From assembly GCF_003151255.1 (NCBI RefSeq), contig NZ_CP029481.1, forward strand, positions 3,696,501 through 3,760,500: a DNA stretch of 64,000 nucleotides, written 5' to 3'. Positions 7,640 to 60,952 of the stretch are shown one piece after another. A program made the translations under genes and the position numbers. Numbering within the stretch: position 1 is the first letter of the stretch; each line of letters starts with the position of its first letter. Origin of the DNA: Microvirga sp. 17 mud 1-3. GTDB lineage: Bacteria; Pseudomonadota; Alphaproteobacteria; Rhizobiales; Beijerinckiaceae. Under the pieces are notes generated by a model, which was not told where the DNA came from, did not search any database, and worked only from the letters and a program-made list of their open reading frames with translations.

Positions 7640-7814
7640 CGCCGCCAACCTCGAATCGTCACGAACGTCCCCGTCTTGATGCCCGCTCCGGGTAAATAAG
7701 CCGTGAAAGAACGACGCATCCCGTCAACGATATTGCCATGGACAGAATATGGCGCTGCCTTACACTATCCCCAGCCCTTTCCCTGTCACCAGTTCAAGAT
7801 CCCAAAAAAATCGG

Positions 7815-8705
7815 ATGCGGCCAGCCATCACCGACGAGTTCGAACCTCCCTTTGTCGTCATCGAGCCAGCCGGCCAGACGGTGCCCTTCGTGTTCAATGT
7901 CCCCCATGCGGGAGCGATCTACCCGGCCTCCTTCCTGGCGGCTTCGCGCCTGGATGCGCTGGCGCTGCGCCGCTCGGAGGACGCCTATGTGGACGAGCTC
8001 TTCGCTCCCGTGGTCGACCTGGGCGCCCCGCTCATGACGGCCCGCTTCCCCCGGGCCTATCTGGACCTGAACCGGGAGCCCTACGAGCTCGATTCCCGCA
8101 TGTTCGAAGGGCGCCTGCCGCCCTTCGCCAATACCCGCTCCATGCGCGTGGCAGGGGGGCTCGGCACCGTTCCGCGCATCGTGGCCGACGGGCAGGAGAT
8201 CTATGCGACGCGCCTGCCGGTCGACGAGGCCCTCCAGCGGATTGAATGGCTCTACAAGCCCTATCATCGCGCCCTGCGGCAGCTCATCCGGCGCACGGCC
8301 CAGACCTTCGGCCAGTCCTTCCTGATCGATTGCCACTCCATGCCCTCGACCAGCGTCAGCCGGGATGACGGAGCCAAGGCGGACATCGTGCTCGGCGACC
8401 GCTACGGCACGAGCTGTACGCCCCTTCTCATCGAACTGACGGAAGCAGCCCTGCGCGGGCGCGGCTACACCGTGATCCGCAACAAGCCCTATGCTGGGGG
8501 CTTCATCACCGAGCATTACGGGGAGCCGACTCTCGACCGGCATGCCCTGCAGGTGGAAATCAACCGGTCGATCTACATGGACGAGCGCAGCCTGCAGAAG
8601 AAGCCGGGCTTCGGAAGTCTGGCTCAGGACCTCGCCCTTGCGTTTTCCGAAGTGATCGAGACCCTTGCGGGCGAACGGCCGCCCCAGCAGATCGCGGCCG
8701 AGTAG
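7815..8705 (+). CDS. N-formylglutamate amidohydrolase family protein (paralogue 2)
   Basis: From the ATG at 7815 the product is 296 residues, matching the family length; an upstream ATG at 7749 would add 22 residues without family similarity. Motifs: VPFVFNVPHAGAIYP, RSEDAYVDELF, FPRAYLDLNREPYELD, LIDCHSMPS, VLGDRYGTSC, RNKPYAGGFITEHYG and LQVEINRSIYMDE, with His and Glu residues of the zinc site. The likely reaction is hydrolysis of N-formylglutamate or a related N-acyl amino acid. Its place opposite cpdR is conserved in Hyphomicrobiales. The transcript can run across the antisense of the first mmgR-like RNA to the terminator at 8862-8885. Confidence 0.9.
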   Translation: MRPAITDEFEPPFVVIEPAGQTVPFVFNVPHAGAIYPASFLAASRLDALALRRSEDAYVDELFAPVVDLGAPLMTARFPRAYLDLNREPYELDSRMFEGRLPPFANTRSMRVAGGLGTVPRIVADGQEIYATRLPVDEALQRIEWLYKPYHRALRQLIRRTAQTFGQSFLIDCHSMPSTSVSRDDGAKADIVLGDRYGTSCTPLLIELTEAALRGRGYTVIRNKPYAGGFITEHYGEPTLDRHALQVEINRSIYMDERSLQKKPGFGSLAQDLALAFSEVIETLAGERPPQQIAAE

Positions 8706-8730
8706 AGCCGCCGGGCGACTGACCGGACAA

Positions 8731-8820
8731 GAAAAAAGGCCGCTGTTGCCAGCGGCCCGAAGTTTAGGGAGGAAACGCCCAAAAGGGCAGCAACAGAGCG
8801 ACGCCGTCGCCCTATCGCAA
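8731..8820 (-). ncRNA. mmgR: suhB/mmgR (alpha-r8) family small RNA, copy 1
   Basis: The minus strand shows a small RNA of about 90 nt. It has a first hairpin near 8795-8815 (GCGAC/GTCGC), a small GCCC-UUUU-GGGC hairpin, the unpaired UUUCCUCCCUAAACUU, and a terminator whose 8-bp stem (8738-8745 / 8750-8757) closes a GCAA tetraloop and is followed by six U. UUUCCUCCCU is, as I recall, the signature 10-mer of the alphaproteobacterial MmgR family; rhizobial MmgR limits polyhydroxybutyrate storage. The promoter is at 8826-8854. 54 bases (8729-8782) recur exactly at 9549-9602. The suhB-type gene hisN nearby fits the family's original name. Confidence 0.82.
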
Positions 8821-8825
8821 GACAC

Positions 8826-8854
8826 GAGATAGTTCGGGTCTGAACGGTTCGCAA
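8826..8854 (-). promoter_or_regulatory. promoter of mmgR-like RNA copy 1
   Basis: On the minus strand, TTGCGA (8849-8854) and TATCTC (8826-8831) are 17 bases apart, placing the start near 8819. The second copy has an equivalent pair, TTGCGA and TATATT. Confidence 0.6.
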
Positions 8855-8861
8855 GACCGAA

Positions 8862-8886
8862 AGGGCAGCATCGCTGCCCTTTTTTA
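8862..8886 (+). terminator. intrinsic terminator downstream of the amidohydrolase
   Basis: A 7-bp stem GGGCAGC/GCTGCCC (8863-8869 / 8873-8879) with loop atc is followed by six T on the plus strand. It can end the amidohydrolase transcript after it has crossed the antisense of the small RNA. Confidence 0.75.
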
Positions 8887-9032
8887 TGGCATCGCTGCGA
8901 CATTTGGCACGCCCCGAGGCATTGCGCCGGCGCCCTCACCGTGGTGGCATGGGGTTCGCGACGGGCACATGCATGGCGCCGGAACGGCCTGTCACAAGAA
9001 TGAGATATCCGGCAGATAGGGGCACCTGCATC

Positions 9033-9170
9033 ATGAGCCCGAACGACAAATACGATCTGGACCTCCTGGGCGATCCGCCCTCCGCCACCCTGCACTGCCC
9101 CCGATGGCTTCCCCTCTTCCTGCTCGGGATCGGCCTGATGGGCATCGTCTGGCATCACGGCTTCGGCTGA
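9033..9170 (+). CDS. possible small membrane protein (45 residues)
   Basis: The frame MSPNDKYDLDLLGD...WLPLFLLGIGLMGIVWHHGFG gives a short polar head and one C-terminal transmembrane helix, a common small-protein shape. The start at 9033 has no clear ribosome site, and in-frame codons continue upstream to about 8886, so the start is uncertain. It lies between the two mmgR-like RNAs, ahead of psiF. I recognise no family. The membrane-helix composition on the sense strand is the main argument for it being real. Confidence 0.4.
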   Translation: MSPNDKYDLDLLGDPPSATLHCPRWLPLFLLGIGLMGIVWHHGFG

Positions 9171-9250
9171 GCCCTCACGCTCCTTCCGGGTGATTGCCTT
9201 CGGACCTCGGCGCCCTAGCCTCTCAGGGGTTATTCCCGGGAGATACACCC

Positions 9251-9496
9251 ATGAAAGCCATAGCTGCAGCCTTCGTCCTGATCCTCTGCGCCGGAAGTGC
9301 CTATGCGGCCGAGAGTTCCTGCACGGCGCAGGCAACCGAGAAGAAGCTCGCAGGAGCCGCCAAGACCAGCTTCATGACCAAATGCGAGCGGGACATGAAA
9401 GCCTCCTGCGACACGCAGGCGACAGAGAAGAAGCTTAGCGGCGCCGCCAAGACGAGCTTCACTAACAAATGCGTGAAGGATTCCGTCGGGATGTGA
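9251..9496 (+). CDS. psiF: PsiF repeat protein
   Basis: The product is 81 residues with a signal peptide (MKAIAAAFVLILCAGSAYA) and two nearly identical PsiF repeats: CTAQATEKKLAGAAKTSF and CDTQATEKKLSGAAKTSF, each followed by a partner Cys (TKC, NKC). Start at 9251 is preceded by GGGAG. PsiF proteins are small periplasmic proteins named for phosphate-starvation induction in E. coli; their job is unknown. I see no Pho box upstream. The gene sits between the two mmgR-like RNA genes, which are transcribed against it. Confidence 0.88.
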   Translation: MKAIAAAFVLILCAGSAYAAESSCTAQATEKKLAGAAKTSFMTKCERDMKASCDTQATEKKLSGAAKTSFTNKCVKDSVGM

Positions 9497-9550
9497 TGCG
9501 TATAGGCGGTCACACGCCAGGCTGACCCGACCACAGGTGAGCCCTGAAAA

Positions 9551-9640
9551 GAAAAAAGGCCGCTGTTGCCAGCGGCCCGAAGTTTAGGGAGGAAACGCCC
9601 AAGAAGGGCTACGATACGGCGACGCCATCGCCATATCGCA
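9551..9640 (-). ncRNA. mmgR: suhB/mmgR (alpha-r8) family small RNA, copy 2
   Basis: This minus-strand RNA shares 54 bases (9549-9602) with copy 1, covering the UUUCCUCCCU segment and the terminator (9558-9565 / 9570-9577, GCAA tetraloop, six U). Its 5' part has diverged but folds alike: CGATA/TATCG encloses GGCGA/TCGCC, then GCCC-UUCUU-GGGC. The change of sequence with retained pairing argues for a functional RNA rather than a random duplication. The promoter at 9647-9674 is better than that of copy 1. It lies directly upstream of, and divergent from, hisN. Confidence 0.84.
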
Positions 9641-9646
9641 CTGCAC

Positions 9647-9674
9647 AATATAAAGTGCGCCGCACAATTCGCAA
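9647..9674 (-). promoter_or_regulatory. promoter of mmgR-like RNA copy 2
   Basis: On the minus strand, TTGCGA (9669-9674) and TATATT (9647-9652) are 16 bases apart, or 17 if the -10 is read as ATATTG. The start would be near 9640. Confidence 0.65.
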
Positions 9675-9891: not shown

Positions 9892-10674
9892 ATGAGGCTC
9901 ATCGACTTCACCCATTTCGTCAACGAGCTCGCCACGGTCTCGGGCCGGGCGATCCTGCCCTTCTTCCGCAGCAGCATCGCCGCCGAGGACAAGTCCCGCG
10001 GCGGCGCCTTCGATCCGGTGACCGAGGCGGACCGGGCGAGCGAGGCCGCCATGCGCCAGCTCATCAAGCGCACCTTCCCGACCCATGGCATCGTCGGAGA
10101 GGAATTCGGCGCCGAGAGAGAGGATGCCGAATATGTGTGGGTGCTCGATCCCATCGACGGCACCCGCGCGTTCATCGCCGGCCTGCCCACCTGGGGCACC
10201 CTGATCGGGCTGACCCGGCATGGGCGTCCGGCGTACGGCATGATGCACCAGCCCTTCACGGGCGAGCGCTTCTTCGGCGACGGCGGCCGCTCGACCTATT
10301 GCGGCCCCGGAGGCGAACGCACGCTGATGACCCGCCGCTGCGCCTCGCTCAAGGACGCCATCATCTCGACCACCAGCCCCAAGCTTTTCGCCGGGGAGGA
10401 GCTGCGAGCCTATGACCGGGTGGAGAGTGTGGCACGCCTCGCCCGCTACGGCTGTGACTGCTACGCCTATTGCATGCTGGCGGCCGGGCATATCGATCTG
10501 GTGGTGGAATCCGGCCTCAAGCCCTACGACATCGTCGCCCTGATCCCGATCATCGAGGGCGCGGGCGGGATCGTCACTGCCTGGGACGGCGGGTCAGCCG
10601 CTCAGGGCGGGCGCATCGTCGCGGCGGGGGACCGCCGGGTCCATGCCGCTGCCGTCGAGCTCCTCAGCCGCTAG
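9892..10674 (+). CDS. hisN: histidinol-phosphatase, inositol monophosphatase family
   Basis: The product is 260 residues from the ATG at 9892; the frame stays open upstream to 9655 but that part has no family similarity. Inositol-monophosphatase motifs: FDPVTEADRASE, GIVGEEFG, the metal site LDPIDGTRAFI and KPYDIVALIPIIEGAGG. In Hyphomicrobiales this branch removes phosphate from histidinol phosphate in histidine synthesis; older annotations call it suhB, so the exact substrate is inferred. It requires Mg2+ held by Glu and Asp of the motifs. Its last 81 bases overlap the convergent hydrolase gene. Confidence 0.88.
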   Translation: MRLIDFTHFVNELATVSGRAILPFFRSSIAAEDKSRGGAFDPVTEADRASEAAMRQLIKRTFPTHGIVGEEFGAEREDAEYVWVLDPIDGTRAFIAGLPTWGTLIGLTRHGRPAYGMMHQPFTGERFFGDGGRSTYCGPGGERTLMTRRCASLKDAIISTTSPKLFAGEELRAYDRVESVARLARYGCDCYAYCMLAAGHIDLVVESGLKPYDIVALIPIIEGAGGIVTAWDGGSAAQGGRIVAAGDRRVHAAAVELLSR

Positions 10675-51436: not shown

Positions 51437-52303
51437 ATGGTCGATCTCCTCCTCAGCCCCTTTTCCGACTTCGCCTTCATGCAGCGCGCCCTGGTGGGCG
51501 TGATCGCCATCGCGCTCGCCGGCGGGCCGGTCGGCGTCTTCCTCATGCTGCGCCGCATGAGCCTGACGGGCGACGCCATGGCCCATGCCATCCTGCCCGG
51601 CGCCGCCATCGGCTACCTGATCGCCGGCCTGTCGCTGCCGGCCATGACCATCGGCGGCCTTGTCGCGGGCGTGGTCGTCGCCGTCGCGGCGGGCCTCGTG
51701 TCGCGCTTCACGGCGCTCAAGGAGGACGCCTCCCTGGCGGCCTTTTACCTCCTGTCCCTGGCGCTCGGCGTCACCATCGTGTCCCTGCGGGGATCGAACG
51801 TGGACCTGCTGCACGTGCTCTTCGGCACGGTGCTGGCCCTCGACGATTCGACCCTGCTGCTCATCTCGGCGATCTCGACCATCACGGTCCTGGCGCTCGC
51901 CCTCTTCTATCGCCCGCTCGTGCTCGAATGCGTGGATCCCACCTTCCTGCGCTCCGTGAGCCGCGCCGGCACGCCGACCCATCTCGTCTTTCTCGGCCTC
52001 GTGGTCCTCAACCTGGTGGGCGGCTTCCATGCGCTCGGCACCCTGCTGGCGGTCGGCATGATGATGCTGCCGGCGGCCGCCTCCCGGTTCTGGACCAACG
52101 ACATCACTATGATGATGGTGGCCTCGGTCGCGATCGGCATCGTGTCAGGGATCGGCGGCCTCCTCCTGTCCTTCCATGCGGAGCTTCCGGCCGGGCCGGC
52201 CATCATCCTGACGGCGGGCGGGATCTACGGCCTGTCCCTCCTGGTCGGCCGCGAGGGCGGCCTGCTCTGGCTCGCCTGGCCCGGCCGGCACCTGGAGGCC
52301 TGA
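51437..52303 (+). CDS. znuB: zinc/manganese ABC transporter permease
   Basis: From the ATG at 51437 the product is 288 residues with eight or so transmembrane helices. The ABC-3 family pattern is clear: FMQRALVGVIAIALAGGPVGVFLMLRRMSLTGDAMAHAILPGAAIGYL, FTALKEDASLAAFYLLSLALG, DLLHVLFGTVLALD and GTLLAVGMMMLPAAASRFWTND. It forms the membrane channel for the metal ion. It lies between znuC and znuA in the same operon. Confidence 0.94.
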   Translation: MVDLLLSPFSDFAFMQRALVGVIAIALAGGPVGVFLMLRRMSLTGDAMAHAILPGAAIGYLIAGLSLPAMTIGGLVAGVVVAVAAGLVSRFTALKEDASLAAFYLLSLALGVTIVSLRGSNVDLLHVLFGTVLALDDSTLLLISAISTITVLALALFYRPLVLECVDPTFLRSVSRAGTPTHLVFLGLVVLNLVGGFHALGTLLAVGMMMLPAAASRFWTNDITMMMVASVAIGIVSGIGGLLLSFHAELPAGPAIILTAGGIYGLSLLVGREGGLLWLAWPGRHLEA

Positions 52304-60308: not shown

Positions 60309-60720
60309 GGCGCTCTCCCCACCAAAGGTTCAATGGAGGTCTTCAAGCCTCCGGATTGAAGTTCAGACGTCGTGGGCTCCTCGCATGGCGAGGTCCTGCG
60401 CGTCCGGCGTCAGCGAGGGAAGGTCACATCCCGCGTCGTGCGATGGAGACACGATGAGCGGCGATGGGCTCTTCACCCGACGATGCTGCCTTGGATTGGA
60501 TGGGGAATTCCCGTCCGCACGCCTGGCAATGATAAACAAGCCTCTTCGGTGCCGACCTTTGGAGGGCCGGCGAGACCAAAAAAGCCCGTTCGTCGTTGCT
60601 TTAAGTCACGTCCCCCGTTGAGAACGAGGTACGCCGGTTTCGCCTCCGGCTGCCGGTTAGGGGTTTCGAGAGCTAGGTCGCTCTCGGGCGGCTGTCCGGC
60701 CTCTTGTCCGGATGCCCACC
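60309..60720 (-). promoter_or_regulatory. long structured leader of the decarboxylase gene, candidate speF motif
   Basis: Several hundred bases before the start contain no gene but clear RNA structure. On the minus strand a hairpin GTACCTCGTT/AACGGGGGAC (60610-60632) is followed by AAAGC...GCTTTTTT (60578-60603), a possible premature terminator, then a GCCGGCC/GGTCGGC hairpin. Alphaproteobacterial decarboxylase genes of this type carry the speF RNA motif upstream. I cannot confirm the consensus by eye. Confidence 0.45.
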
Positions 60721-60952
60721 AACCGGCACGCGACCACAGGCACGTGCGAAATTGGGCAAGCAGTGAAATAGGCTCATCGGACCCGGATCACAAGACCTTT
60801 TTAGCCCTCTCGGAGGATTTTTTTGACCCTCTGCGATACCCTTCAGACCCCTGCGACCGTTCAGCTTTTATTAAGCGGAACAGGTGGACGGAGAGAGGTC
60901 CGGCCCCATCTCCGGTTTTCCCTTCTCCAGACCGAGCAAGACAGTCCCCTCC

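Follow-up and report, generated by a model that had tools for sequence, protein, structure and literature searches.

The window, by which we mean the whole 64,000-nucleotide stretch of DNA analyzed here, carries on its minus strand two nearly identical small RNA (sRNA) genes, copy A and copy B, one on either side of a psiF-repeat gene. This arrangement raises the question of why two such genes are kept so close together, and whether they answer to the same signal. The reading that we favor, with a confidence a little better than even, is that they are alpha-r8 siblings with one seed, which would respond to different inputs and repress mRNAs for nutrient uptake. The genes of the locus are the following.

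7749..8705, plus strand: N-formylglutamate amidohydrolase (FGase) gene (PF05013, E 1.8e-74)
8722..8795, minus strand: copy A, alpha-r8/MmgR-family sRNA (RF00519, 76.2 bits, E 5.4e-14)
9033..9170, plus strand: small membrane-protein-like ORF, 45 aa (relatives at the same position)
9251..9496, plus strand: psiF-repeat gene, convergent with copy B (PF07769, E 6.8e-08)
9542..9616, minus strand: copy B, alpha-r8/MmgR-family sRNA (RF00519, 73.0 bits, E 3.5e-13)
9892..10674, plus strand: inositol-monophosphatase-family gene (hisN/suhB type), divergent from copy B (PF00459, E 4.8e-51)

The Rfam covariance model RF00519, known as suhB, MmgR or alpha-r8 and bearing the descriptive name 'Makes More Granules Regulator RNA', covers both copies with scores far above its gathering score of 41, and the Rfam scan of the two sRNA intervals returned no family besides it. 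The initial annotation, made from the letters of the sequence, had assigned the pair to this family and named this model as the check; the membership of both copies is now as good as certain, and the pair thus belongs to a known sRNA family, the RNA type itself being already known. What had been read of the RNA body can be seen directly in the sequence: the copies are identical over 54 bases (8729-8782 and 9549-9602), and each contains on the minus strand UUUCCUCCCU, AAACUUC and then GGGCCGCUG-GCAA-CAGCGGCC-UUUUUU, a Rho-independent terminator with a 9-bp stem and six U. At 94% identity the repeat reaches 8723-8787 and 9543-9607. The 10-mer UUUCCUCCCU, the seed, lies downstream of a small hairpin in copies A and B and is single-stranded in the centroid structures of both; the minimum-energy fold of copy B places three of these ten bases in pairs with the 3' end. 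The Pfam matches bear out psiF and hisN as the neighbors that had been named. No Pfam family matched the 45-aa ORF, which has relatives of 55% and 36% identity in the same place in two other genomes. The psiF gene is itself internally repetitive, with two 77-base units (9317-9393 and 9404-9480) that are 77% alike. The FGase gene, the usual neighbor of alpha-r8 genes (PMC12559287), adjoins copy A, and the FGase-linked locus recurs in relatives.

Each copy also encodes a 5' stem-loop that follows the -10 box and precedes the Rfam match. The initial annotation made no mention of it, and save for a few bases it lies outside the RF00519 match.

8790..8818, minus strand: copy A 5' stem-loop (single-strand fold and covariation; only its last bases within the Rfam match)
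9610..9640, minus strand: copy B 5' stem-loop (single-strand fold and covariation; only its last bases within the Rfam match)

On folding, copies A and B adopted an identical three-stem shape, and folding of the two predicted RNAs was better than that of all 200 dinucleotide shuffles (z -4.06 and -5.16). The 5' stem-loop differs from one copy to the other, and its helix covaries: among 98 distinct Microvirga sequences (98 of the 101 distinct rows, alignment A3), 12 of its 14 pairs have at least one sequence in which both partners have changed. Counted across the entire structure, cells changed on both sides number 166, whereas shuffles average 52.8, and 93.6% of cells are paired, shuffles reaching 88.8% and slid versions 34-56%; the sequences are related by descent and the cells are not independent events. 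RNAalifold alone predicts the 5' helix in a shorter form. That the core does not vary in this alignment is no evidence, since most loci were retrieved by an exact 29-mer and so have the core intact. For other genera, 21 sites in 20 hand-picked loci were folded as single sequences without shuffles, and at these a hairpin also forms immediately 5' of the small GCCC/GGGC hairpin. The MmgR of Sinorhizobium meliloti is described as a 77-nt RNA with three stem-loops (PMC7143759), so that a 5' hairpin as such may already be known; the stem length and the covariation given here are results of the present analysis.

The difference between the two copies lies upstream of this common RNA, in the promoter regions.

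8826..8831, minus strand: copy A -10-like box TATCTC (by eye)
8832..8845, minus strand: GTTC-N6-GAAC dyad in the copy A promoter spacer (exact match)
8849..8854, minus strand: copy A -35-like box TTGCGA (by eye)
8863..8879, minus strand: copy A upstream hairpin, GGGCAGC-N3-GCTGCCC, with a plus-strand T run (read from the sequence)
9647..9652, minus strand: copy B -10-like box TATATT (by eye)
9656..9667, plus strand: TGCGCCGCACAA between the copy B -35 and -10 boxes (exact match to the Bradyrhizobium PhaR consensus TGCRNYGCASMA)
9669..9674, minus strand: copy B -35-like box TTGCGA (by eye)

The TTGCGA/TAT-type boxes at 16-17 bp noticed in the initial annotation are present by eye at both copies (17 bp in copy A, 16 bp in copy B). 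It had not remarked that the two upstream regions are unlike each other. The promoter of copy B is of the ancestral type found at the single FGase-linked copies of relatives. A TGTGC-N3-GC motif was present in 31 of 35 ancestral-class, 7 of 40 dispersed, none of 21 second-locus and none of four copy-A rows, and its other strand resembles the Bradyrhizobium PhaR site, the consensus of which is given in PMC6201568; the 12-mer at copy B is also listed there for a PhaR-repressed gene. With up to one mismatch, TGCRNYGCASMA fell in the promoter spacer in 34/35 ancestral-class, 13/21 outgroup, 0/21 second-locus, 3/40 dispersed and 0/4 copy-A rows, and near the RNA start in 7/35, 8/21, 20/21, 28/40 and 0/4 of the same classes, respectively. 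Anywhere in the 77 bases, the corresponding counts were 34/35, 15/21, 20/21, 31/40 and 0/4, and base-composition shuffles reached such a match in 1.0-1.7% of cases (77 bases, the four larger sets). The match near the RNA start overlaps the sequence of the 5' hairpin and may therefore owe its conservation to the RNA rather than to PhaR. Upstream of copy A, TGCRNYGCASMA did not occur within one mismatch, the best match having three. Copy A thus seems to be without the usual carbon-storage control site, a point that is new. The sole further exact match to TGCRNYGCASMA within the window is at 51546-51557 on the minus strand.

What copy A has in this region is a hairpin and a dyad. The upstream hairpin motif was found in 4/4 copy-A, 19/40 dispersed and 0/35 ancestral-class rows, and a relaxed form of the dyad, GTT[CT]-N5-7-GAA, in 4/4 copy-A, 21/40 dispersed, 0/35 ancestral-class and 0/21 second-locus rows; the exact GTTC-N6-GAAC was confined to the copy A of the window among the copy-A rows tested. 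These counts are to be read with the knowledge that the dyad, hairpin and TGTGC motifs were chosen post hoc, after the alignment had been viewed, that the four copy-A rows stand for three genomes, one of which is represented by two loci, and that one locus (L083) with too little upstream sequence was excluded.

The initial annotation had suggested that the pair might give additive or divergent regulation, perhaps of carbon storage. Divergent regulation is made likely by the differing promoters of A and B, and the PhaR-type site of copy B makes an involvement of carbon storage plausible. In S. meliloti, reviews describe mmgR as repressed by AniA, the PhaR homologue, and activated by NtrC, by way of a dyad located between the -35 and -10 boxes (PMC7143759, PMC8401924), the position at which copy B has its PhaR-type site. 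The RNAs of the window also share with MmgR the covariance model, the seed, the terminator and the small hairpin. They differ from it in that mmgR is a single-copy gene whereas the window has two neighboring copies, and in the greater predicted length of the RNA, the long 5' stem-loop and the one copy that lacks a PhaR-type site.

The family is widespread. RF00519 matched all 48 genomes of the genus, with 1-11 matches per genome, in answer to the copy-number check that the initial annotation had proposed, and 143 of the 149 genomes of the taxonomic family had a match above the cut-off; in the 4.4-Mb genome of the window, copies A and B are the only ones. The exact 29-base core occurs in 83 stretches of genome contigs, and all 80 of those listed are Microvirga. 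Multiple and adjacent copies of alpha-r8 are already on record (PMC12559287). Among the genus matches listed, pairs less than 2 kb apart occur in the window genome, G023 and G024; among the family matches listed, other close pairs lie 292 (G166), 293 (G125) and 215 (G075) bases apart, start to start. In the 292-base pair (L280), the upstream sequences are nearly alike and each copy has an exact PhaR-type site, in contrast to the window pair. Microvirga alpha-r8 genes occupy many unrelated contexts, including plasmids (L056 and L067, Microvirga sp. VF16), and the scattered ones often have a similar upstream hairpin and promoter.

A third match in the window genome (G000:C1:1783264-1783358; L003, L143), at 32.2 bits under the RF00519 cut-off, was rejected as an alpha-r8 gene: it is a separate conserved, terminator-bearing element whose core is the variant TTTCTTCCCT. 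Versions that are 87-89% alike occur in G023, G024 and G044, and no further genome among the 48 searched has it at nearly full length, so that it is possibly a clade-specific sRNA. Within the window itself, at 60417-60757 on the minus strand, an ar45 sRNA match (51.6 bits) immediately precedes a match to the speF leader (58.1 bits), the two arranged as if on one transcript.

Such variable copy number, together with an RNA body identical over 54 bases and the absence of copy A from the locus of G044, a genome close to that of the window, would also be expected if the pair were plainly redundant, that is, if interchangeable housekeeping alpha-r8 copies raised dosage only and the promoter difference were meaningless. 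We regard this as rather unlikely, because the upstream hairpin and dyad of copy A recur in copies elsewhere and, in relaxed form, are present in all three genomes that have copy A.

Read as its complement, the seed resembles a ribosome-binding site. The window genome has 11 exact copies of AGGGAGGAAA: two are the sRNA genes themselves, two stand 1-2 bases before an ATG, and seven are unclassified. The two ATG starts belong to a sorbitol-type PTS permease (PF03608) and, by reading, a sugar-binding protein. Both match the seed region over 11 to 12 bases, with duplex energies of -22.8 and -20.9 kcal/mol, as compared with -16.8 for psiF and -16.2 for hisN, which lack a perfect match, and -13.5 kcal/mol at the start of the small ORF. 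The pattern GGGAGGAA-N1-8-ATG gave 27 hits at 26 distinct sites in the same genome and five when reversed. Eleven of the 26 sites precede periplasmic binding-protein genes and two precede PTS permeases; the translations were read by eye, and Pfam tallies of the 20 proteins scanned agree with this reading. Across the genus, the 11-mer pattern AGGGAGGAAAC-N0-4-ATG gave 89 hits in 39 of the 48 genomes and one hit when reversed; one of the 89 falls inside an alpha-r8 gene (G020). At 30 of these loci, read one per genome, 21 encode binding proteins, six of them apparently one gene; the hits are partly orthologues, so the counts are not independent.

Control patterns temper this association. A one-base variant, AAGGAGGAAAC, which retains 9 bp of pairing, gave 57 hits, and 15 of the 30 loci read encode binding proteins. 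For AGGAAGGAAAC (34 hits) the figure was 11 of 30 without a Pfam scan, ten of the 11 belonging to one gene family, and for AAGGAGNTNNC it was none of the 28 loci recovered (two of the 30 were unrecovered; 22 proteins were Pfam-scanned, and many were too short and not real genes). Because the one-base control was also rich in binding proteins, targeting is not proven. Binding-protein genes of Microvirga tend toward GGAGGAAAC-like sites in general; this may be no more than a preference for ribosome-binding sites of this kind, or another sRNA may act on these genes. An exact match to the seed is consistent with pairing without proving it.

The richness of the one-base control in binding proteins would also suit a different role, in which the RNAs act on phasin and PHB genes, as MmgR does, and the association with binding proteins reflects nothing but the shape of their ribosome-binding sites. 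MmgR lowers PhaP1 and PhaP2 in S. meliloti, which speaks for this role; however, according to the passages on MmgR in PMC7143759 and PMC12559287, no direct target of it has been identified, and the SisA targets tested in Caulobacter, as presented in PMC12559287, are mostly uptake receptors. We consider a phasin role improbable, and continue with nutrient-uptake mRNAs as the candidate targets of both siblings.

How the pair came about can be approached from the relatives, whose synteny the initial annotation had proposed to inspect. At the locus of four genomes (G003, G043, G022 and G010) the order is FGase, sRNA, hisN-type gene, and both psiF and copy A are missing; that of G042 has an MFS gene between the sRNA and hisN. 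The full order FGase, copy A, small ORF, psiF, copy B, hisN, with both sRNAs, is found in three genomes, those of the window, G023 and G024, and G044 has FGase, psiF, sRNA, hisN, with copy A absent from the locus. The psiF gene was found in nine of the 48 genomes and at the FGase-hisN locus in these last four, which form one group with support 1.0 in a tree of four neighboring proteins. The branch leading to this group is probably where copy A, psiF and the small ORF were gained, in whichever order. In the same tree G044 groups with the window genome (support 0.908), and it may therefore have lost copy A. We accordingly dropped our reading of G044 as an intermediate in which psiF came first and copy A later, since the grouping makes loss at least as likely. 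A second syntenic locus (L035, beside a phosphoglucomutase-like ORF) was considered as the donor of copy A and also dropped: no alpha-r8 core was recovered in the 3.4-kb loci around its glyoxalase-like neighbor in the four genomes covered, the window genome, G023, G024 and G044.

The upstream sequences bear on the same question. Over 62 upstream bases aligned on the core, copy A scored 7.5, 7.5 and 10.5 against copy B of the same genome (window genome, G023 and G024, in this order throughout). Against ancestral-class rows its mean scores were 3.4, 5.9 and 8.8 and its maxima 9.0, 8.0 and 13.5. Far higher values were obtained with second-locus rows (means 18.6, 19.6 and 24.9) and dispersed rows (means 20.0, 20.9 and 21.8; best 32, 33 and 41), the likeness to these two classes being nearly equal for the copy A of the window genome (18.6 versus 20.0) and the second-locus mean being the higher in G024 (24.9 versus 21.8). 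By these scores, the upstream region of copy A resembles that of copies away from the FGase-hisN locus, and the pair does not have the look of a simple tandem duplication. The model of the initial annotation, in which an ancestral gene was duplicated in place around psiF and the copy A promoter then changed rapidly, has in its favor that A and B are neighbors pointing the same way and that the family includes tandem pairs with nearly alike upstream sequences, such as L280, but it is the least probable of the alternatives, because the scores of copy A are low against its own B and high against dispersed copies and a change starting from B would need to converge on the dispersed type.

Returning to two siblings with one seed and different inputs, we infer from the family membership, the structure, the promoter difference and the seed complementarity of the pair how such a system would work. 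Copies A and B would be transcribed as MmgR/SisA-type base-pairing sRNAs of about 90 nt (predicted) with the common seed UUUCCUCCCU. Control of copy B would fall to a PhaR/AniA-type regulator occupying the spacer between its -35 and -10 boxes, while copy A, without PhaR-type sites, would respond to some other input, its GTTC-N6-GAAC dyad being perhaps the site of action. Together with Hfq, the two RNAs would cover the ribosome-binding sites of uptake mRNAs, such as those for periplasmic binding proteins and sugar PTS permeases, and the translation of these mRNAs would fall when nutrients or stored carbon allow. Adjacent sibling sRNAs are known in AbcR1/AbcR2, and AbcR1/AbcR2 and GcvB repress transporter mRNAs; the RNAs of the window differ from these in matching RF00519. 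A closer parallel is found in Caulobacter crescentus, where, according to PMC12559287, the alpha-R8 siblings SisA-D pair through UUUCCUCCCU, SisA represses TonB-dependent receptors among other targets, and CrfA titrates SisA on carbon starvation. The SisA-D promoters are described there as unrelated and their upstream regions as being without a common motif. The two systems are alike in having several siblings with one seed, unrelated promoters and uptake genes among the targets, and sisA, like copy A, lies downstream of an FGase gene. They differ in that SisA-D are at separate loci whereas the window siblings flank psiF, and in that CrfA sponges SisA-D whereas no CrfA-like sponge was identified among the 11 exact AGGGAGGAAA sites here, seven of them unclassified. 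What the present pair adds is a switch split within one pair, a covarying 5' stem and a testable target class.

More tentatively, and with distinctly less confidence than we have in the reading of two siblings with different inputs, the pair could be a two-input switch, in which a PHB-gated copy with a PhaR site and a PHB-blind copy with the other dyad share one seed, and alpha-r8 could have spread across numerous Microvirga loci, including plasmids, as a portable repressor of substrate-binding proteins. If this is true, the uptake of many substrates would be set by stored carbon together with a second signal. The locus connects an sRNA family that is widely conserved but little studied with the site of a named transcription factor and with a candidate target class. 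Because nature has here set one RNA body behind two different switches, it makes the retention of near-identical sRNAs testable in one place.
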